Shown: in pieces, positions 15,772-30,302 of the stretch
Layout: every line of letters begins with the position of its first letter
How positions within the stretch are numbered: position 1 is the first letter of the stretch
Virus record (IMG/VR): IMGVR_UViG_3300030333_004687
Span: 1-34,534 of that record
DNA length: 34,534 nucleotides
Source: a virus
Reading direction: 5' to 3' (one strand)
Notes under the pieces: model-generated
Told to the model about the DNA's origin: nothing
Seen by the model: the letters and a program-made list of their open reading frames with translations, nothing else
Database searches by the model: none
Translations under genes and position numbers: made by a program

Positions 15772-15892
15772 ATTAATATATTCAGTAGGGTTAGCTTTTT
15801 TGATAAGTTCGTTGATAATGGTATGTATTTATATACCGATAAAAATCAAAATAATGGAGTATTTAGATGATAAGCAAAAACGAGTTAAGTAA
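15764..15892 (+). CDS. Small single-TM protein (42 aa)
   Basis: ATG 15764 overlaps the end of the upstream two-TM gene. Residues about 5-27 are hydrophobic (SVGLAFLISSLIMVCIYIPI), followed by a basic tail KQKRVK. The N-in single-pass topology and the overlap suggest a partner of the upstream membrane protein. No family can be named from 42 residues. Confidence 0.55.
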   Translation: MSKLIYSVGLAFLISSLIMVCIYIPIKIKIMEYLDDKQKRVK

Positions 15893-15930
15893 TTTTAGGA
15901 CATTTGTTAAATTTATAGAACAGGCTATCT

Positions 15931-16305
15931 ATGGCAAAAAAAGAAGGATACGAAGAAATAAACCTACCATTAAGACTTCCGTCGAGAAACCTAACAAACA
16001 AGTGGCATTGGTCAAAGAAATCGAAAGAAAAATCGATTTACAAATTGCTAATACGAAATCAAATGAGATTAAAAAAGATTCAGAAAACAAAGCCGAAGGA
16101 AAAATTTTTAATAGCGATAATTTCTTACCGAAAACGATTACTTGATTATGACAATCTTGATGTTAAATTAATATTAGATGCATTATGTGATGAAGGATTT
16201 ATATGGGACGATGCACCAAAATATATTAAAAAACCAATAATAGAACAACATAAGGATAAAAATGAAAGAATACAAATTATCCGTTACTCCTTTAAAATAT
16301 CTTGA
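15931..16305 (+). CDS. RusA-type Holliday junction resolvase
   Basis: This 124-residue protein shows the RusA signature: LPLRLPSRNLTNKWHW near the N-terminus, then LLDYDNLDVKLILDAL with Asp72, Asp74, Asn75 and Asp83, and GFIWDDAP with Asp93 and Asp94. These acidic residues correspond to the metal-binding active site of RusA endonucleases, dimeric enzymes that cut Holliday junctions and branched DNA before packaging. The length equals the family norm of about 120. The 5' two thirds of the gene has many CpG dinucleotides, unlike surrounding genes, which suggests a different origin. A competing frame at 15867..16145 overlaps it but shows no such motifs. Confidence 0.85.
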   Translation: MAKKEGYEEINLPLRLPSRNLTNKWHWSKKSKEKSIYKLLIRNQMRLKKIQKTKPKEKFLIAIISYRKRLLDYDNLDVKLILDALCDEGFIWDDAPKYIKKPIIEQHKDKNERIQIIRYSFKIS

Positions 16306-16576
16306 TTATGTAAGAAATTATAGATATTGTATAGTATGTTTAAAAAATACCCTTGTAGAGCCACACCATTTAAAAGCTATTGGTATGGGTAATAATCGCA
16401 AAAAAGAATTAATACAGCATTATACAGCAATTCCTGTATGTAGGGATTGCCATACTGAATATCACGCTAAAGGGGAAAAATACCAAGCAGATAAATATAA
16501 AATGAACCATTGGAAAGAAAATTCTAAAATTTTGAGTGAATATTTAATAAGTGAATTAAAAAAGGAAACATTATGA
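16262..16576 (+). CDS. HNH-type nuclease, zinc-containing (104 aa)
   Basis: Cys23 and Cys26 (CIVC), His35-His36 in EPHHLKAIG, and Cys60/Cys63-His64 (CRDCH) followed by His68 outline a zinc-supported HNH fold. The pattern HHL, then IPVCRDCHTEYHAKGE, is typical of small phage HNH/DUF968-like nucleases associated with recombination or packaging. It overlaps the RusA gene by 44 bases, with AAGGATAAAA ahead of the start, and is ATGA-coupled to the ParB-domain gene. Roles could include DNA end processing or assistance to the terminase. The substrate is unknown. Confidence 0.75.
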   Translation: MKEYKLSVTPLKYLDYVRNYRYCIVCLKNTLVEPHHLKAIGMGNNRKKELIQHYTAIPVCRDCHTEYHAKGEKYQADKYKMNHWKENSKILSEYLISELKKETL

Positions 16577-17157
16577 AAATAATATCAAGAGTACCAAGAG
16601 ATTTAAAACAGGCTGATTATAATCCAAGACAATTAACAGACAAACAATATAAAGATTTAAAAACATCAATACAGAAATTTGGATTAATTGACCCTATTAT
16701 AGTAAATGAAAATAAAAAAAGAAAAGATATTGTAATAGGTGGGCATCAAAGATTAAAAGTTGCTTTAGATTTAGGGCACGATACTGTACCTTGTGTTCAT
16801 TTAGATTTATCTATTAAAGAAGAAAAAGAATTAAATGTTAGATTAAATAAAAATACAGGTCAATGGGATTATGATGTATTAGCTAATGAATTTGATATGG
16901 AAGAATTAGTAGATTGGGGATTTAATGAAAAATCTTTATTAGGATTATTTGATGAAATAGATTATTCTATATTAGAAGATAATGATGTTGATGAGCAAAT
17001 GGAAAATTTGGAAAAAGAAACAAGAAAAGCTATACAAATAGAATTTACTGTAGATGATTATGAGTTAGCATTTGATTTATATAAACAAATGAGAGAGAAA
17101 TATGAATATGTTGGAGCTGAATTAATTGAATTTTTTAGAGGAAAATTAAATGAATAA
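16573..17157 (+). CDS. ParB-like N-terminal domain protein
   Basis: This 194-residue protein has a ParB/Srx-like domain in its first 95 residues: ADYNPRQLTDKQYKDLKTSI, GLIDPIIVNE, the GGHQR motif at about 56-60 and a beta stretch. Phage proteins of this type occur with DNA methyltransferases and DNA-modification genes and may act as NTP-dependent DNA clamps or nucleases; the exact activity is unproven. The C-terminal half (about 110-194) is acidic and helical and ends in a segment like AELIEFFRGKL. It is ATGA-coupled to the HNH gene and overlaps the glycosyltransferase by 8 bases, placing it in the base-modification cassette. No partition (ParA) gene is present, so plasmid-type partitioning is unlikely. 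Confidence 0.8.
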   Translation: MKIISRVPRDLKQADYNPRQLTDKQYKDLKTSIQKFGLIDPIIVNENKKRKDIVIGGHQRLKVALDLGHDTVPCVHLDLSIKEEKELNVRLNKNTGQWDYDVLANEFDMEELVDWGFNEKSLLGLFDEIDYSILEDNDVDEQMENLEKETRKAIQIEFTVDDYELAFDLYKQMREKYEYVGAELIEFFRGKLNE

Positions 17158-17899
17158 AGATGTAATAGTGTGTATAGGTAGTAAAGGAAGACCTCAAACA
17201 ACAACATATAAATTATTTGAGGGAAAATTTAAAGTATATCATTTTATAGAACCACAAGAAATGGATTTATACGATGTTCCAAATATGATTAACATAGAAC
17301 AAAATGATATGGGAATATCTTATATGAGAAATTTTGTATTAAAATGGTGTAAAGAAAATAATAAAAAATGGATAATATTAGCAGATGATGATATAGTGAG
17401 TTTTGGTAAATCAGTTAATGGAAAAACTATTAAAATGGACGCTGAAATATGGAATGATATATATAACAAAGTAAAAAATATGCCATTTGAATTAATAGGG
17501 ATAAATTATGTTCAACACGCTTGGCACGAAATGTATAGCGTTTCTATTAATAGTAAATTTGTAGATTGTTGTGTATTGATTAATGTAAGTGCAGTAAATT
17601 GGGATTTTGGTGATTGGTTATTAAAAGTAGATAGAAATTTCACTTTAGAAACAATAAAAAATGGGTATGGTACAATAAAATTTAATAAATATTGGTTTAG
17701 TTGTCCTGAGGTAGGTACAAATACAGGTGGGTTGCAAGATATGTACAAAGCCAAAAAAGATACTGAATGGGCAGTTAAATTAGTGGAAAAATGGAGACCT
17801 CACGCCAAGTTAATAAAAAAGAAAAAAAGAATAGATGCGAAAGTGAATATAAAAGCAGTAGCAAAACATTATAATAAAAAAACAGATGAAATCCGTTGA
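17150..17899 (+). CDS. TET-associated glycosyltransferase (TAGT-like)
   Basis: This 249-residue protein looks like a GT-A fold. An N-terminal strand, VIVCIGSKGRPQTT, is followed by MGISYMRNFVLKWC (residues about 54-67, with the conserved RN), and then the metal/nucleotide-sugar motif LADDDI with Asp79-81. Later features include HAWHEMYSVSINSKFVDCC and the PEVGTNTGGLQDMYK segment. This layout fits TET-associated glycosyltransferases, which are known in phages to add sugars to 5-hydroxymethylcytosine made by TET enzymes. The adjacent TET/JBP gene supports that role. The donor sugar cannot be read from the sequence. The Lys-rich C-terminus may bind DNA. The gene overlaps the TET gene by 14 bases. 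Confidence 0.75.
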   Translation: MNKDVIVCIGSKGRPQTTTYKLFEGKFKVYHFIEPQEMDLYDVPNMINIEQNDMGISYMRNFVLKWCKENNKKWIILADDDIVSFGKSVNGKTIKMDAEIWNDIYNKVKNMPFELIGINYVQHAWHEMYSVSINSKFVDCCVLINVSAVNWDFGDWLLKVDRNFTLETIKNGYGTIKFNKYWFSCPEVGTNTGGLQDMYKAKKDTEWAVKLVEKWRPHAKLIKKKKRIDAKVNIKAVAKHYNKKTDEIR

Positions 17900-18707
17900 A
17901 TTAATATCAAAAGAGCATAATCATAAGATAGGGCAAAGATGTAAAGATATAGAGCCTAATGTAACTCAAGATTCGTTATTTGTAGAAAATGGCGAAATAA
18001 TAGGTTTTTATAAAACAAACATAACAGGCAAAATAAAAAAATTGCTTGATATTATAGATATAGAATTTAGAAGTAAAAATGTACCTAAATCATTATTAGA
18101 AAGGTCAGATGTATTTGACGCTGTATATAATAAAGGCAAAACAAGAAAACAAGCTAAAGCAACACAAACTATACAAATGAGTACAATATTAGGAAGTATG
18201 TTACCAAAACCTCATATGCGACGACCATATCCTTGTGTTAGTTCAGTACATTATAAAAATGAAGCAAAAAATTTTATAAAAGCTATGATTATGGCAAGTA
18301 TTGAATCAGAATCTTTAATAAAAAAGTATGCAAACAACATATTACAAAGGCAAAAAGAATTAGTTTCAAAAAAAGTTCCAAAAAAATGGCAATTTGGTAA
18401 TATATTTACAGGGAGTATAAGTAATTATAATATATCAGCACCTTACCATAAGGATAATAATAATCTTGTAGGAGGTGTTAATGTTATATATACAACAAGG
18501 AGTGATGCAGAAGGAGGATTTTTAAATGTACCTGAATATGATATTACTATAGAAATGGCTCATAATTCTGTATGTGTATATCCTGCTTGGAAAAATATGC
18601 ACGGAGTTACACCTATAAAAACTTATGGAAGCAGGTCGTATAGAAATACTCATATATTTTATGTATTAAAAGGATTTGAAAAATATGGCGAGACCAAAGA
18701 AATATAA
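17886..18707 (+). CDS. TET/JBP-family 2-oxoglutarate/Fe(II) DNA dioxygenase
   Basis: This 273-residue protein ends with a complete double-stranded beta-helix. The iron ligands are HKD at about His188-Asp190 and His239 in WKNMHGVTPI, and Arg250 or Arg253 is available for 2-oxoglutarate. The strand pair GGFLNVPEYDITIEM lies between them, as in TET/JBP enzymes. The N-terminal 110 residues include a basic, possibly DNA-contacting region. Family members oxidise the methyl group of 5-methylcytosine (TET) or thymine (JBP) in DNA; phage TETs make hydroxymethylcytosine for glycosylation. The gene overlaps the glycosyltransferase upstream and the small terminase downstream by 23 bases, so modification and packaging are transcribed together. 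No cytosine methyltransferase is seen in the window. Confidence 0.82.
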   Translation: MKSVELISKEHNHKIGQRCKDIEPNVTQDSLFVENGEIIGFYKTNITGKIKKLLDIIDIEFRSKNVPKSLLERSDVFDAVYNKGKTRKQAKATQTIQMSTILGSMLPKPHMRRPYPCVSSVHYKNEAKNFIKAMIMASIESESLIKKYANNILQRQKELVSKKVPKKWQFGNIFTGSISNYNISAPYHKDNNNLVGGVNVIYTTRSDAEGGFLNVPEYDITIEMAHNSVCVYPAWKNMHGVTPIKTYGSRSYRNTHIFYVLKGFEKYGETKEI

Positions 18708-18999
18708 TATAGACCCTGAACAAGTTGAAAAATTAGCACAATTTGGCTGTACTAATACAGAAATAGCATCTTTTTTTGGTTGTGATGAAAGTTTAATTCG
18801 AAAGAGTTATTCCGAAAATATTACAAAAGGGAAAGACAAAGGGAAAATAAGATTAAGACAGTTGATGTGGCGAACTGCTGAAAATGGCAATGTAACTATG
18901 CAAATATGGTTAAGTAAGCAATATTTAGGAATGAGTGATAAACAAGAAGTGACTACTATGGAGTTACCTCAAGGATTTGATACACATCATATTGAATAA
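18685..18999 (+). CDS. Terminase small subunit-like DNA-binding protein
   Basis: I chose ATG 18685 (MARPKKYNID), giving 104 residues; an in-frame TTG at 18676 would add three. Residues about 10-45 form a helix-turn-helix (VEKLAQFGCTNTEIASFFGC and DESLIRKSYS). The segment GKIRLRQLMWRTAENGNVTM, followed by QIWLSKQYLGMSD, is the pattern of phage small-terminase-like proteins that recognise pac or cos DNA. It overlaps the TET gene and is followed by the large subunit gene after one small ORF. Confidence 0.75.
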   Translation: MARPKKYNIDPEQVEKLAQFGCTNTEIASFFGCDESLIRKSYSENITKGKDKGKIRLRQLMWRTAENGNVTMQIWLSKQYLGMSDKQEVTTMELPQGFDTHHIE

Positions 19000-19129
19000 A
19001 AAGAAAAAGAAAAAAACAACACATAGAACTTGGAGCTACCTTATTAAAAAAATAGTTCCTGAAGGGGAAAAAGGTAGGCATTGGTGGTTGTATTCTTGGT
19101 TAATGAATAATAGGACATTAAAAAAATGA
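18992..19129 (+). CDS. Small basic Trp-rich protein, TTG start (45 aa)
   Basis: A frame starting at TTG 18992, overlapping the TerS stop region, runs to TGA at 19127..19129, overlapping the terminase start as ATGA. It fills the gap exactly. The peptide has a poly-Lys N-terminus and GRHWWLYSWLMNNRTL, with four Trp in 45 residues, improbable for AT-rich noncoding DNA. The end-to-end coupling on both sides supports translation. Function is unknown; an accessory packaging factor is a guess from position. Confidence 0.55.
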   Translation: MNKKKKKKTTHRTWSYLIKKIVPEGEKGRHWWLYSWLMNNRTLKK

Positions 19130-20352
19130 GTATAGGATTATTTAGTCATCAAACTAAATTTGTTTATTCAGAATCAAAATATCCTGCATTGGTATCAGGA
19201 TATGGTGCAGGAAAGACATATGCTTTATGTGTGAAGGCATTGAAAGAATGTGGATTTAATTCAGGATACACAGGTATTTTAATGTCCCCTACATATAGAA
19301 TGATAAAAGATACATTACAGCCAACATTAGAGGAGGTTATTAAAATTGCTAAATTTAATTATGAATACTCTGCGAGTGATAATAGATATCGTATTTATTG
19401 GTCTGATGGGTATGCTGATATTCTTTTACGGAGTGCTGAAAACTATCGTAGGCTGGCAGGACTCAATTTGGCTTGGGCAGGTATTGATGAATCTGCCTTA
19501 CTTAAAGACGACCAATGTTGGAAAATGGTTTTATCAAGACTGCGACAAGGAAACACATTACGAGCATTCGTATGCACAACACCTGAAGGATTCAATTATG
19601 TGTACAGATATTGGAAAGAAGATGTCAAAGAAGGATATGAATTAATACAAGCTGATACTGAATCTAATTCTAAATTACCTGAAGAATTTATACAATCGTT
19701 AAAAGATAATTATGATGAAAAATTAATTAAAGCATATATGCAAGGTCAATTTGTAAACTTGCAATATGGTGCAACATACTATAACTTTGATAGGAAAATA
19801 AATGTACAAAAAACACATTACAATCAAAACAAGCCAATATGTATTGGAATCGACTTCAATGTCGACCCAATGTGTGCAGTGGTATCGCAAATGCACGCCA
19901 ATGGTAAAGTTCAAGTCATCAACGAATTTAAAATACGACATAGTGGAGGGAAAGAGCTTATAACAGAGCAAATGGCTATTATGATAAAAGATAATTATCC
20001 TAATCAAGTATATTATTGCTATCCTGACCCATCAGGCAAACAAAGAAAAACATCTTCTATTGAAACTGACCACGATATATTAAGGCAAAATGGTTTTATA
20101 TTAAGATTTAAAAAACAAGCACCAAGAGTTGTTGATAGAGTGAATGCTGTTAATAAGCTGTTTGATAATTTAATTATTGACCCTAAATGTAAAAATCTTA
20201 TAGCAGATTTTGAACAAGTAGTGAATAAAGAAGGAACACGAGATATAGATAAATCCAATCCTGAATTGACACATATGTCAGACGGATTTGGATATTTTGT
20301 AGAATATGAATATCCAATCAGAAAACCTGAAACTAAATCATTTATGGCATAG
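19126..20352 (+). CDS. terL: Terminase large subunit
   Basis: The 408-residue ATPase/nuclease of the packaging motor. Walker A is SGYGAGKT (residues about 24-31). Walker B and the catalytic Glu are LAWAGIDES (Asp-Glu at about 121-122). The coupling motif is in CTTPEGFN (about 149-156). The RNase H-like nuclease carries IGIDFNVDP (Asp near 242), YPDPSG (Asp near 300) and HMSDGFGYF (Asp near 385). The length is at the short end for TerL. It uses ATP hydrolysis to pump DNA into the capsid and cuts the concatemer. The gene has more CpG than the structural genes. It ends in TAG, and the portal follows behind AGGAGAAAT. Confidence 0.95.
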   Translation: MSIGLFSHQTKFVYSESKYPALVSGYGAGKTYALCVKALKECGFNSGYTGILMSPTYRMIKDTLQPTLEEVIKIAKFNYEYSASDNRYRIYWSDGYADILLRSAENYRRLAGLNLAWAGIDESALLKDDQCWKMVLSRLRQGNTLRAFVCTTPEGFNYVYRYWKEDVKEGYELIQADTESNSKLPEEFIQSLKDNYDEKLIKAYMQGQFVNLQYGATYYNFDRKINVQKTHYNQNKPICIGIDFNVDPMCAVVSQMHANGKVQVINEFKIRHSGGKELITEQMAIMIKDNYPNQVYYCYPDPSGKQRKTSSIETDHDILRQNGFILRFKKQAPRVVDRVNAVNKLFDNLIIDPKCKNLIADFEQVVNKEGTRDIDKSNPELTHMSDGFGYFVEYEYPIRKPETKSFMA

Positions 20353-24618: not shown

Positions 24619-24969
24619 ATGGCTAAATTATCCACTATGGAATCTTATGAAGCATTAAATGCTTCTACAGGTGTGGGTGGTCAATGGTCAGTTAAAAGTG
24701 CAGTAACAGCAGGTTCTTCAGCAGATGTAACAAATACACAGCATATTGAAGTAGATACAGATACAGCACAACTCGGAATATTAAGTGATGTAGAAATATA
24801 TTTCAATTTTTCAATTACACAAACAGATATAACTACTGCAAAAGATTTAAAACTACCTAAAGGAACGCTTACTTTTATTACTATTCCAAGAGGTTTGGGA
24901 AATGTAATATATTTTAATATCTTATCAACAACATCTACTACAGGTAGTGTCCGTATAGTAGAGATATGA
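24619..24969 (+). CDS. Small beta-rich head/decoration-like protein (116 aa)
   Basis: This 116-residue protein abuts the small Lys-rich gene and overlaps the giant fibre start as ATGA. It is Thr/Ser/Gly-rich with strands such as VEIYFNFSITQTDI and NVIYFNILSTTS, as expected of a capsid decoration or fibre-anchoring protein. The position between capsid and fibre suggests it attaches the fibre to the virion, which is an inference. Confidence 0.55.
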   Translation: MAKLSTMESYEALNASTGVGGQWSVKSAVTAGSSADVTNTQHIEVDTDTAQLGILSDVEIYFNFSITQTDITTAKDLKLPKGTLTFITIPRGLGNVIYFNILSTTSTTGSVRIVEI

Positions 24970-27900
24970 TTAAAGGCATAATATCTACAATATCTGCATC
25001 TCCTATTGGCGAATCTACAGGAACAGATGCAGTATCCATATTTGATACCCTAACAGTAAAAGCTGATACAGAAGTTCTTTCCATATTAAATGTTCAAAAA
25101 TCAGATGGTACTGAATTATTAACAGTAGATGCAGATACAGACCAATACAATTCAGGTAATTGGTCGCACGATGGATTAACAATATTTGGTTCACCTATAA
25201 AATTACCTAATGGTTCAAATTCAGCACCTGCTATTACATTTCACGGAAGTAATCCTACAGGAATTAGATATGATGGTACAAGTTTTCATTTTCAAAGAGA
25301 AAGTACAGGAACTGCAGTTTCTCTTGGTGTTAATAATATTGGCTTTGGTGGTGGTGGTAATTCAAAAATATCAGCAGTAACAAATACATCTGTTACTATT
25401 AATGGTGGTGCAAATTTATTCAAAGTAGAAGCTACTAAAGTATCTATAAGTAAAGGATTAATTGAATTACCTGCTGATAATATAGGTATTGGTAATGCTG
25501 TAGCATTTCACGCTGACGCAACTTATAATGTAGCAATAGGAAATCAGGCTTTAAATGCAACTACAGGCGAAGCAACAGGAAATGTAGCAATAGGCGACCT
25601 TTCATTAACCTCATTAACTACAGGTGATTCAAATGTAGCGTTAGGATTTACAGCAGGGCAATCTTTGACTACAGGCTCACATAATATGTTGATAGGTCAA
25701 GGTGCAGGAAATAAAATAGTAGGAGCAGGTGCAAATACATTAGTAGGTACAGGTGCAGGATATCAATTAGTAGATTCAAATGATAATTATAATGTAGGAA
25801 TAGGAACATATGCACTATATAGAGCAGGTGGTGCTGACCCAAATAGTAATATTGCTATAGGATATTATGCTATAGGTCAAGGTCATTCTACAGTTGCAAA
25901 TAATAATCCAAAATTAAATGTAGCTATAGGAAAATCAGCATTAGGTGGCACAACAGCATCAGATGTGAATTTAACAGCATCTAATAATATTGCTATCGGA
26001 CACGAAGTTATGAAATTAGCATCTTCGGCTTATGCAAATACAGTAATAGGTTACCAAGCAGGATTAAATATAACTACAGGCTCAAGCAATATGTTATTTG
26101 GAGCACAAGCAGGTGATGCTTTAACTACAGGAGAAAGAAATGTAGCTATAGGTAGAAATGCTTTATCAGCAGAAGATGAACACGGATATAATGTTGCTAT
26201 TGGATATCAATCTATGTTAGTTCATAATGGAGGTGCAAATGGATTTAATGTAGCTATAGGCGATTCATCATTAGTTGATTCCACTACAGGTACAAATAAT
26301 GTTGCTATTGGATATCAATCAGGTGCAAATATTACAACAGGATTTTATAATATAGCGATTGGTACAAATGCTTTATCAACTCATACAGAAGGCAATAGAG
26401 AGGTAGCTATTGGTTATGGTGCTTTACAAAGAGCAACTAATACAGATGTAAATGGTGCATTAAATGTAGGTATTGGATATTTAGCAGGAGCATATGTTTC
26501 ATCAGGTAGGCAGAATATGTTTATTGGTGCATATAGTGGTTGGGGTTGGGAATCTACTGATATAGAAGATGATGCTAAATTACAAGGTAATGGTAATGTT
26601 GGAATTGGATATTATTCATTAAGAAATGTGCAAACATATTTAACAAATCACGCTAATAATAATATAGGAATTGGTACACAGGCAGGTCAAGGTATTACAT
26701 ATGGAAACTCTAATGTTGCTATTGGTTCGCATACATTGTCAGAAGCAAATTGTTATTATAATACGGTAATCGGTAGAAGTGCAGGAAGATATTTATCTAC
26801 TAATCATAATGTAGCCATAGGATATGAATCTTTAATTAATGGTGAAACTGATGATGAAGCAAATAATACAGGTGCTTCTAATATAGCTATTGGTTCTTAT
26901 GCAATGGGGCATAATTCAGGAGATGATATTGCTCATTTTACAGCAGAAAAAAATATTGGTATTGGCTATAAAGCATTAAGTGAAAATTTAGAAGGTAATT
27001 ATAATGTAGCAATAGGCTATGAAGCATTATTAGATGATGTGTATGGCGATAGCAATGTTGCTATAGGATATCAAGCATTAAAGGACGCAGGTACTGAAGC
27101 ATCAGGAAATAATCATCAATCATTTGGTAATGTAGCAATAGGATACCAAGCAGGATATCAATGTCAATATGGAGATGCTAATTTCTTTTTAGGGAAACAG
27201 GCAGGTAGATATTTAGGTGGTGCAGATAGAAGTGGTAATATAAATCTTGGCTCATATAATGTAGCTATTGGTGTATTCTCTATGACACACGGACATAGCA
27301 CAACACCTGCTAATAATACAGGATATCAAAATATAGCTTTAGGTTATGCCTCTATGCAAGGGCAAGGTGGTACTAATTTTACAGCACAAAATAGCATAGC
27401 TATTGGTACTACATCTTTGCAAAATATTCAATCTGCTCATATGTGTACAGCTATTGGTACTCATTCTATGAAAGATTTGACTACAGGTGATGACAATATT
27501 GCTATAGGATATTCTGCATATAGATATAGAACTACTGCTTCAGACAATATAGCTATAGGTAATTACTCTTTTATGAATGGTGAAACAGATGATTTTGGTG
27601 GAAATACAGGTGGTGAAAATATAGCCATTGGTCACTATTCAATGGGAGATAATACAGGTGCTGATTTAGCTAATTTTACAGGAGAGAAAAATGTAGCTAT
27701 TGGTTATAAATCATTAAGTAAAAATTTAACAGGTTCAGATAATATTGCTATAGGATATGAAGCACTAAAGACAGAAGATACAGGTAGTGATAATATAGCG
27801 ATTGGAAAAAACTCATTAAAACTTCAAAATTATGATGGAAGTGGGTATAATGTATGTATAGGTAATGGTGCAGGTGAAAATGCTACGTCTACGAAATTTT

Positions 27901-30302
27901 CATTTTTTCTTGGTCAATCAGCAGGTAAATATGTAACAACTGCTAATAATAACATTGCATTAGGTTACGAAACACTTGGTGCAGGTAAGGGTGCTAATAG
28001 ATTAAGAGGATATGGTGATGGTGGTGGAATGGCGGCTTATTCAGGTGAAAGAAATATTGCTATTGGATATAGAGCATTATATAGTTTAAGTAATTATATA
28101 GCTTCTTCAGATACATTAATACTTGGAACATCAGCATCATCATACAACAATACTGTAATTGGTGCTTATGCAGGTACTGATATGACTACTGCTAAACAAA
28201 ATACTCTAATAGGTGCAGGTGCAGGACAAAATGCATTAGGTAATTTAAACACAATGATTGGTAATGGTGCAGGTGGCAATGTATTTAATGCAAGTAATGT
28301 AGTAGCTATTGGAACTGCTATGGGTTCTTATAGTGGTCAAACAGGTTGTGTTGCTGTAGGTGTAGGAGCATTTAAAAATTTAAGAGTAAGTGGTGGAATA
28401 AGCACGGTAGATGATACTACTCCAACACCATCAGGTGCTTGGACTGCAAGTCAATCACATACAAATATATCAGCAACAAGTGATGATTCGGTAAATGGAA
28501 CAGGAGCAACATTTGATATAGAAACTGATGGTTCAGGAAATCCTACATTTACAGTTAATACAGCAGGGTACGGATATAAATCAGATGATGAATTAACATT
28601 TACAGACCCACACGCAGGTACATCAAATACAGCAGTAGTAGTAGTAAATGCTACATTAAGCGAAACAGATAGACAAGTAGCAATCGGATATAATGCAGGT
28701 GTTGATTTAACATATGGTGTAGGTAATACATTAGTAGGAGATGAAGCAGGGCAAAATATCACTACAGGAAATTACAATACAGCAGTTGGTCCAAAATCGT
28801 TAAGTACTAATGTAACAGGTGGCTACAATGTAGCAATGGGTCGCAGAGCATTGTACACATCTACAGCAAGTTTTAATACAGGTATAGGTTCTGATGCAGG
28901 TTATAAAAATACAACAGGGCAGTATAATTTCTTTTTAGGATATACAGCAGGATATGAAAACACTACATCAAATGATAATGTATATATTGGCTATCAAGCA
29001 GGAAGATACAAATCAACAGGAGCAAGTGGTGCAGGTAGAAATATAGCAATAGGTTCTTCAGCTTTTAGAAATGGTGAAAGTGATGATGCAGATAGTAATA
29101 CAGGTTATGAAAATGTAATATTAGGTTGGAACGCTATGTCAGGGAATGTAGGTGCTGATGCAGGACATTGCACTGCTAATCAAAATGTTTTAATTGGCGT
29201 TAAAGCAGGATATATGAATTTATCAGGGAATTACAATGTAGGTATTGGAGATGAAGTATTGTATGATTCAACTACAGCAGATGGAAATACAGCAATCGGA
29301 TACAGAGCATTAAACAAAGACACTGTTGGTTCAAATACAGCAATAGGATATCAAGCAGGGTATAATAATGATGATGGTACTAATAATATTGCTATTGGAT
29401 ATAATGCTATGTATTCTAATACAAGTGCTGATAGTGTAGTAGCTATTGGATTTGAAGCAGGATATTCAATAACAGTAGGGGATTCAAGAAATACAGCTAT
29501 TGGAAAACAAGCAGGTAAAAATGTTACAACAGGGCAAAGAAATGTATGGATAGGTTCTAATGCAGGATATGATGCAACTATATATTCTGATGCAAGTAAT
29601 AGGGTAACAGGAAGCGATAATTGTGGTATAGGAGATTGGGCATTAAAAAGTATTAAAGAAGGAGCAACAGGGAATACAGCTATTGGTTCAAGTGCAGGAG
29701 AAAATGTAGGCGATACAGATTATGGTACATATATAGGATATAAAGCAAAGAATACTGGAACATATGATTATGTTAGAGATGGTCAAGTTAAAATAGGTGC
29801 TTACGGAGGATTTCAAGGTTATTCAAATAAAATAACAATGAGTAATTTTACTACTGTAGCAGACAATGATAATGCACATACAAGACCATTAATAAGATTG
29901 CCAAGATATGGATTTTTAAAAAGAATTACTTGTACAGTAGTAACAGCATCAGGTGGTACAGGAGAATATAATATTTCGTTAGGCTCAAATGTTGTTAATG
30001 CAGGTGCATCTATGGCAGACAGAAAAGAATTGATAGGGAAAGATATACAAGCTGCCGAATTAGTTGGTGCAAAATTAAGACAATCTACTGTAACAGCAGA
30101 TGGAGATACTAAATTAGATATAATTACTGCTAAATATGTACATATATGGGAAGCAGACCAATCAGTAGATGATAGTGCAGGTTGGACTTTATTGGAAGGG
30201 CAAGATATGTTTGTATATATATGCCATGCTAACGGTAGTAATGCCAATGATTCTACTAATGCAGAATTAAGAATAACTATTGAATATTTTGGAGAAGATT
30301 AA
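24966..30302 (+). CDS. Giant trimeric beta-roll fibre with about 70 NxAIG-type repeats
   Basis: This 1778-residue fibre covers about 15% of the genome. The N-terminal 190 residues include an anchoring-type module with LNVQKSDGTELLTVD (41-55). Residues about 188-1595 carry roughly 70 copies of an N-[VIT]-[AG]-[IL]-G-x-x-[AS]-[LGM] motif. This resembles the left-handed parallel beta-roll of YadA/Hia-type trimeric adhesin heads. Spacing varies from about 17 to 35 residues. Residues about 1139-1235 (28380..28670) interrupt the repeats with an unrelated beta domain. The last 140 residues form a non-repeated cap, with RLPRYGFLKRITCTVV. No S74 autoprotease motif is evident. The likely role is host attachment as a trimeric fibre. 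Confidence 0.85.
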   Translation: MIKGIISTISASPIGESTGTDAVSIFDTLTVKADTEVLSILNVQKSDGTELLTVDADTDQYNSGNWSHDGLTIFGSPIKLPNGSNSAPAITFHGSNPTGIRYDGTSFHFQRESTGTAVSLGVNNIGFGGGGNSKISAVTNTSVTINGGANLFKVEATKVSISKGLIELPADNIGIGNAVAFHADATYNVAIGNQALNATTGEATGNVAIGDLSLTSLTTGDSNVALGFTAGQSLTTGSHNMLIGQGAGNKIVGAGANTLVGTGAGYQLVDSNDNYNVGIGTYALYRAGGADPNSNIAIGYYAIGQGHSTVANNNPKLNVAIGKSALGGTTASDVNLTASNNIAIGHEVMKLASSAYANTVIGYQAGLNITTGSSNMLFGAQAGDALTTGERNVAIGRNALSAEDEHGYNVAIGYQSMLVHNGGANGFNVAIGDSSLVDSTTGTNNVAIGYQSGANITTGFYNIAIGTNALSTHTEGNREVAIGYGALQRATNTDVNGALNVGIGYLAGAYVSSGRQNMFIGAYSGWGWESTDIEDDAKLQGNGNVGIGYYSLRNVQTYLTNHANNNIGIGTQAGQGITYGNSNVAIGSHTLSEANCYYNTVIGRSAGRYLSTNHNVAIGYESLINGETDDEANNTGASNIAIGSYAMGHNSGDDIAHFTAEKNIGIGYKALSENLEGNYNVAIGYEALLDDVYGDSNVAIGYQALKDAGTEASGNNHQSFGNVAIGYQAGYQCQYGDANFFLGKQAGRYLGGADRSGNINLGSYNVAIGVFSMTHGHSTTPANNTGYQNIALGYASMQGQGGTNFTAQNSIAIGTTSLQNIQSAHMCTAIGTHSMKDLTTGDDNIAIGYSAYRYRTTASDNIAIGNYSFMNGETDDFGGNTGGENIAIGHYSMGDNTGADLANFTGEKNVAIGYKSLSKNLTGSDNIAIGYEALKTEDTGSDNIAIGKNSLKLQNYDGSGYNVCIGNGAGENATSTKFSFFLGQSAGKYVTTANNNIALGYETLGAGKGANRLRGYGDGGGMAAYSGERNIAIGYRALYSLSNYIASSDTLILGTSASSYNNTVIGAYAGTDMTTAKQNTLIGAGAGQNALGNLNTMIGNGAGGNVFNASNVVAIGTAMGSYSGQTGCVAVGVGAFKNLRVSGGISTVDDTTPTPSGAWTASQSHTNISATSDDSVNGTGATFDIETDGSGNPTFTVNTAGYGYKSDDELTFTDPHAGTSNTAVVVVNATLSETDRQVAIGYNAGVDLTYGVGNTLVGDEAGQNITTGNYNTAVGPKSLSTNVTGGYNVAMGRRALYTSTASFNTGIGSDAGYKNTTGQYNFFLGYTAGYENTTSNDNVYIGYQAGRYKSTGASGAGRNIAIGSSAFRNGESDDADSNTGYENVILGWNAMSGNVGADAGHCTANQNVLIGVKAGYMNLSGNYNVGIGDEVLYDSTTADGNTAIGYRALNKDTVGSNTAIGYQAGYNNDDGTNNIAIGYNAMYSNTSADSVVAIGFEAGYSITVGDSRNTAIGKQAGKNVTTGQRNVWIGSNAGYDATIYSDASNRVTGSDNCGIGDWALKSIKEGATGNTAIGSSAGENVGDTDYGTYIGYKAKNTGTYDYVRDGQVKIGAYGGFQGYSNKITMSNFTTVADNDNAHTRPLIRLPRYGFLKRITCTVVTASGGTGEYNISLGSNVVNAGASMADRKELIGKDIQAAELVGAKLRQSTVTADGDTKLDIITAKYVHIWEADQSVDDSAGWTLLEGQDMFVYICHANGSNANDSTNAELRITIEYFGED
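25527..29750 (+). repeat. Degenerate coding repeat array (NxAIG beta-roll units)
   Basis: Within the giant fibre, about 50 units precede the interrupting domain and about 20 follow it, by manual count of motifs such as NVAIGYQAL and NIAIGYEAL. At DNA level the core is an AT-rich AATGTAGCTATAGGATAT-like sequence with synonymous drift. A higher-order unit of about 64 residues recurs at 26838..27029, 27576..27767 and about 29070..29260. Confidence 0.85.
28380..28670 (+). other. Inserted beta domain interrupting the fibre repeats
   Basis: About 97 codons lack the NxAIG motif. The segment contains SVNGTGATFDIETDGSGNPT and an AGYGYKSDDELTF stretch. From memory, such GTGATF...GSGY-type modules recur in structural proteins of aquatic phages. 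The repeats resume immediately after it (RQVAIGYNAG). Confidence 0.65.

Follow-up and report, generated by a model that had tools for sequence, protein, structure and literature searches.

Both the coupling of TET enzymes to glycosyltransferases in phages and the hypermodification of phage thymidine are already known. Phage systems with a TET enzyme and a TAGT glycosyltransferase reportedly act on 5-methylcytosine (5mC), following work by Burke in 2021. Systems that combine a C5-methyltransferase, a TET and a glycosyltransferase are mentioned in a passage of PMC12730594 that cites Burke 2021, and in T6-like phages glucosylated cytosine has been assigned to TAGT (PMC13390438). In phages ViI, M6 and phi W-14, thymidine is tailored after formation of a 5-hydroxymethyl group, and the hypermodified thymines of Salmonella phage Vi01 arise by way of 5hmdU, with a kinase and further transferases taking part (PMC6449724). 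In the base J pathway of kinetoplastids, the hydroxylases JBP1 and JBP2 are followed by the J glucosyltransferase. ParB domains accompany phage DNA-modifying enzymes in the ParB–methyltransferase fusions of phrog_498, and ParBc proteins are found beside the phage CmoX carboxymethyltransferases, where their function is not known (PMC12783734).

The locus described here lies in IMG/VR record IMGVR_UViG_3300030333_004687, the whole of which (34,534 bases, the entire virus record) was analyzed and is referred to below as the window. No terminal repeats were found in these 34,534 bases, and the gene order may represent one circular permutation of a siphovirus, in which case the genome would be near-complete. 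The cassette (Table 1) shares with the phage 5mC systems a TET/JBP enzyme and a glycosyltransferase predicted to tailor a hydroxymethyl-pyrimidine, but the window and most of its relatives lack a C5-methyltransferase and have instead a constant ParB partner and one exchangeable slot. With ViI, M6 and phi W-14, the sister cassettes of the window share a homologue of the amino-acid:DNA transferase (ADDT), a P-loop kinase and a predicted tailoring step after 5-hydroxymethyl formation. In contrast to those phages, the cassette has no PF00303 protein, the hydroxymethyl group would be formed by its TET on DNA already replicated, and the tailoring enzyme in the window is a glycosyltransferase. The succession of a TET/JBP hydroxylase and a glycosyltransferase, predicted here to act on thymine, is also that of base J synthesis; however, the viral TET is a single-domain protein with a ParB partner, and has neither the J-binding domain of JBP1 nor the SWI/SNF domain of JBP2. 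A ParB domain and a phage DNA-modifying enzyme are common to the phrog_498 fusions, the CmoX clusters and the window, in which the ParB is a separate protein and its partner a dioxygenase rather than a SAM-dependent enzyme. The literature that we searched, which did not include the key primary papers, contained no description of a constant ParB–TET pair with an exchangeable slot or of a base J-like product in a phage, and an earlier report of the gene association is possible.

Table 1. Positions of the cassette genes and of the adjoining terminase genes in the window.
Feature	Position	Strand	Evidence
ParB-like protein, 194 aa	16573..17157	+	PF02195, phrog_498, phrog_620, ParB-N model match
TAGT glycosyltransferase, 249 aa, LADDDI motif, in the exchangeable slot	17150..17899	+	PF20691, phrog_842
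TET/JBP Fe(II)/2-oxoglutarate dioxygenase, 273 aa	17886..18707	+	PF12851, phrog_6059, invariant residues, AlphaFold2/Foldseek
Terminase small subunit-like protein, directly 3' of TET	18676..18999	+	phrog_309 (E = 2e-11)
Terminase large subunit, flanking, outside the chemistry	19126..20352	+	PF03237 (E = 4e-17)

A preliminary description of this DNA had placed three overlapping genes for a ParB, a TAGT and a TET/JBP enzyme at 16573–18707; the coordinates were correct, and the families were backed by both Pfam and PHROGs. The overlaps are 8 bp between ParB and TAGT and 14 bp between TAGT and TET. For the terminase small subunit-like gene that follows, and that marks where in the genome the cassette sits, the TTG at 18676 is the first in-frame start, with an ATG at 18688 as an alternative. 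The assignment of the middle gene as a TAGT glycosyltransferase was confirmed by a match to PF20691 above the cut-off (E = 1.9e-7, 31.6 bits versus 27.5), together with the acidic LADDDI motif; the protein also matched phrog_842 with E = 2e-15.

The ParB-like protein has PF02195 as its sole Pfam match (E = 3.1e-10, above the cut-off), and neither a central HTH in the protein nor a ParA elsewhere was named in the general Pfam scans of the window proteins. The protein comprises an N-terminal domain (residues ≈9–81) and a conserved C-terminal segment (residues ≈130–190) with the pattern DYSxL...KAIQIEF.... Residues 1–149 matched phrog_498 (E = 7e-35), phrog_620 was matched as well, and in Foldseek the model of the protein matched the ParB-N domain that is found in CTP-binding ParB proteins and in Noc. 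Its nearest sequences are the ParB parts of phrog_498 proteins, in which they are fused to phage DNA methyltransferases. A protein labelled “DNA methylase” in cyanophages MED4-184 (L013, 15790–16431) and MED4-117 (L014, 13830–14471) is ParB-like instead: we rejected the label because this 213-residue protein aligns with the window ParB over nearly its whole length, which leaves no room for a methyltransferase.

The TET matched PF12851 just below the cut-off (E = 9.8e-8, 31.8 bits versus 34.9), which the relative in G010 passed with 43 bits, and matched phrog_6059 with E = 6e-40. In 55 diverse relatives, no substitution was seen at H188, D190, H239 or R253, and the H-x-D-x-x-N motif is kept in all of the 187 relatives in which it was compared. 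By homology within the family, H188, D190 and H239 would be the metal ligands and R253 the contact to 2OG. The AlphaFold2 model, based on an alignment of the 55 relatives, had a pLDDT of 93.4, and a Foldseek search with this model gave TET2 as the best match (E = 8e-11, TM = 0.70), with CcTet, CMD1 and NgTet1 also at the top. The catalytic residues and the predicted fold are thus in agreement with the earlier assignment as a TET/JBP dioxygenase. The 273 residues contained no further significant Pfam domain. We considered N193 (D+3) as a discriminator between thymine and 5mC, but rejected it, as TET2 has an asparagine at the aligned position and the phage relatives also keep this residue. The name attached to phrog_6059, queuine tRNA-ribosyltransferase, is misleading, and RefSeq phage TETs apparently acquired the same label by way of the PHROG name (L013, 17129–17914; L202, 785–1759; other actinophage gp2).

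The absence of a recognizable DNA methyltransferase from the window, also noted previously, held: Pfam found no such domain among the + strand window proteins scanned, and PF00145 had no match anywhere in the 34,534 bases. The only PHROGs match named “DNA methyltransferase” in the window was phrog_498, which arose from the match of ParB to its ParB part, and the one methyltransferase-like hit, a sub-threshold match of the terminase (E = 0.026), was judged spurious. The PF00145 C5-methyltransferase was also missing from 28 of the 31 cassette records with a length of 28 kb or more, and from six actinophages that carry ParB–TET. The absence is thus common to most of the family. The earlier suggestion that an enzyme is missing from the window is probably wrong, since thymine is the best-fitting of the proposed substrates and a thymine route would need no methyltransferase. 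One cluster (L102, 2701–8024) was seen with its own cytosine methyltransferase, three genes downstream of the TET, in the order ParB, TAGT, TET, small HTH-like gene, phosphatase-like gene, C5-methyltransferase and terminase. In G047, G055 and G056, a C5-methyltransferase gene is located elsewhere in the contig, while in L056, L057 and L069 a small SPPC-type protein was counted among the C5-methyltransferase occurrences.

Relatives of the window TET are encoded by at least 583 stretches in IMG/VR, as determined by a profile search, whereas the genomes of 84,980 bacterial and archaeal species yielded one distant match, in an actinomycete MAG. The family is therefore mainly viral. The gene-order analysis covered 187 loci. 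ParB was located upstream of TET on the same strand in 168 of these, while the remaining 19 are truncated, with 3 to 1,390 bases before TET; the arrangement is thus far beyond chance. Downstream, Terminase_6N was the first large gene in at least 31 of the 45 non-redundant loci with enough DNA on that side. The gene junctions within the cassettes are mostly 4-base overlaps, by which the genes are coupled.

The content of the slot, in contrast to the ParB–TET pair, varies. The labels for the 168 loci, assigned partly by hand reading, were TAGT (74, including the window), FkbM methyltransferase (72), empty (9), a probable glycosyltransferase without a Pfam match (6), ADDT sets (4) and a kinase alone (3). 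Pfam confirmed 40 TAGT and 15 FkbM proteins among 81 slot proteins from non-redundant loci, and the slot protein of ≈300 residues that matched no Pfam family is a probable GT-B glycosyltransferase. In the four ADDT loci (L011, L072, L079 and L101), the transferase is accompanied by a kinase, by PALP, or by a glutamine amidotransferase and a GNAT protein; in L101 the set is placed after TET rather than before it. Slots with two or three genes also occur: L099 has TAGT together with a sulfotransferase, and L054 a Gly_transf_sug protein together with TAGT. Compared with locus L002, the window is 73% identical in ParB and 79% in TET, while the glycosyltransferases have no BLAST similarity. Unrelated slots also occur in closer pairs: FkbM and TAGT in L157 and L188 (ParB 97%, TET 91% identical), TAGT and the Pfam-less probable glycosyltransferase in L045 and L051 (90% and 93%), and FkbM and an empty slot in L155 and L162 (95% and 94%). 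When the slot label was placed on a tree of 75 TETs, at least 23 changes were needed, where the least possible number is 5. Thus, ParB–TET is a constant chassis, in which the middle gene is an interchangeable tool.

The pair is also present in cultured phages. In Prochlorococcus phages MED4-184 and MED4-117 the order is ParB, FkbM, TET, a small gene and TerL, and Prochlorococcus phage P-HS2 gave a match at coordinates identical to those in MED4-184. In the actinophages, ParB and TET come first and are followed by the tailoring genes, which are ADDT and a kinase in Mycobacterium phage Zemanar (L202) and Rhodococcus phage Tonitrus; ADDT, a kinase and a further enzyme in Gordonia phage CloverMinnie; a kinase in Microbacterium phage Terij and Arthrobacter phage Ottawa; and TAGT and a deacetylase in Arthrobacter phage Altadena, the isolate that most resembles the window in gene content. 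For Zemanar and Tonitrus, gp1 is a ParB by annotation; any match to our ParB profile stayed short of E = 1. The kinases were identified by PF18751 in Zemanar, CloverMinnie (gp4) and Terij, and by motifs and annotation for gp75 of Ottawa and CloverMinnie. Zemanar gp4 (L202, 2875–3465) is annotated as a terminase small subunit, while Pfam identifies it as P-loop Nucleotide Kinase3 (E = 3e-71).

The locus is probably a cassette for post-replicative DNA hypermodification with a modular design, in which ParB–TET is constant, the slot enzyme does the tailoring, and thymine is the most likely target. ParB would dock on or select the DNA and position the enzymes there, and probably serves to bring in the TET. 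The TET would oxidize the 5-methyl group of a DNA pyrimidine, most likely thymine, to 5-hydroxymethyl, and the slot enzyme would then decorate the hydroxyl; in the window, the TAGT would add a sugar. The result would be a glycosylated 5-hydroxymethyluracil resembling base J, which would shield the phage DNA from host nucleases. More tentatively, ParB–TET could be a general thymine-hydroxylating chassis of phages, leading to base J-like glycosyl-5-hydroxymethyluracil with TAGT, 5-methoxymethyluracil with FkbM, 5-phosphomethyluracil with a kinase, and amino-acid-linked uracils with ADDT.

Three substrates had been put forward in the preliminary description: host-made 5mC, 5mC made by an unrecognized enzyme, and thymine. 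The last, with its base J-like product, agrees best with the comparative evidence and is most likely correct, by our estimate with a good deal of room for doubt, while host-made 5mC appears less likely, because the cassette is found in phages of very different hosts. Thymine is favored by the 28 records and six actinophages without a C5-methyltransferase, by the nesting of kinase-slot TETs among those with TAGT slots, and by the ADDT/kinase sets that lack the usual hydroxymethylase. By analogy, these sets would be expected to use 5-hydroxymethyluracil, on which their known relatives act. The ADDT of L101 matches that of Vi01 (E = 7e-23), which is encoded three genes from a PF18747 5-hmdU DNA kinase 2 gene; the cassette kinases are PF18751-like and distinct from this HMUD2 family. 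Neither the window nor any other tested record with this cassette had PF00303 (thymidylate synthase/hydroxymethylase), but all six ADDT phages without a TET did. Among the 12 ADDT phages tested, five had only TET, six had only PF00303, and one (Cr30) had both; this exclusivity (Fisher p = 0.015) is soft, as n is 12 and some of the phages are related. In Cr30, the PF00303 match scored 373 bits versus 43–86 in the others, and the protein may be an ordinary thymidylate synthase. In the ADDT phages, TET would appear to take the place of the hydroxymethylase that acts at the nucleotide level. The window itself lacks PF18724 (ADDT), and no kinase match was found among its scanned proteins; for the window, the argument for thymine is drawn by analogy from the sister cassettes.

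The alternative that the TET oxidizes 5mC, supplied by the host or by an unrecognized phage enzyme, and that TAGT glycosylates the resulting 5hmC, is in our judgment unlikely but deserves serious weight. The methyltransferase-containing phage systems in the passage of PMC12730594 citing Burke 2021, the T6-like TAGT assignment (PMC13390438), the C5-methyltransferase within the L102 cluster and the asparagine at D+3 common to the window TET and TET2 are all consistent with it. It is harder to reconcile with the general lack of PF00145 in the longer records, with ADDT/kinase tailoring known from 5hmU DNA, and with a host range that extends from Prochlorococcus, which typically has 0–1 restriction-modification systems per genome and in many genomes none (PMC8262939), to actinobacteria. 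We also looked for a footprint of 5mC deamination and found none: CpG in the window is low (0.36), but C at codon third positions is not depleted before G (0.092, compared to 0.110 before A and 0.081 before T), and CpG across the cassette loci (0.25–1.38) tracks GC content (r = 0.74).

Enzymes of the TET/JBP superfamily act on both thymine and 5mC, and the substrate might differ by lineage, with thymine used in the ADDT/kinase cassettes and 5mC in those with TAGT or FkbM. The ADDT-linked TETs of L011 and L101 do sit on long branches in the 75-TET tree. However, the kinase-slot TETs of L032 and L097 nest in TAGT clades (89% and 75% identity to their TAGT-slot neighbors), so that one base could serve all slots, and the TAGT and FkbM cassettes as a rule have no C5-methyltransferase; we find such a division improbable. 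Since glycan synthesis often involves members of the FkbM, Gly_transf_sug and sulfotransferase families, it could also be imagined that the glycosyltransferase, FkbM and sulfotransferase proteins decorate a surface glycan, with no modification of DNA and the TET as a bystander. The fixed position of the slot between ParB and TET with 4-bp overlaps, the DNA dioxygenases as best matches to the TET fold and the action of ADDT on DNA in known systems make this highly implausible.

From one metagenomic phage comes a testable rule, that of a constant oxidizer with a swappable decorator. Several slot types are available in cultured phages (MED4-184, MED4-117, P-HS2, Zemanar, CloverMinnie, Tonitrus, Terij, Altadena and Ottawa), leading to predicted bases of which some are possibly unreported. 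A TET that is indeed directed at thymine would bring bacterial viruses into the range of base J-type chemistry, and would supply enzymes with which 5hmU and its derivatives could be written straight into DNA. If ParB–TET is a general thymine-hydroxylating chassis, it would also be a prokaryotic counterpart of the base J pathway of kinetoplastids, and could be its source.

Some further observations were made on annotation. A Tet_JBP domain is present in Cr30 gp129 (L210, 7354–8682), which is annotated as a “Putative SNF2 DNA repair protein”; this phage also has an ADDT homologue and PF00303. Nonlabens phage P12024L (L193, 7122–9387) has an operon of TET, TAGT and a DPPY-type methyltransferase, away from the terminase and with no adjoining annotated ParB. 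In the window, 15867–16305 contains two overlapping frames, of which the RusA-like one is 15931–16305, and 24966–30302 encodes a tail-spike/structural protein of 1,778 residues with eleven stretches matching phrog_4636.
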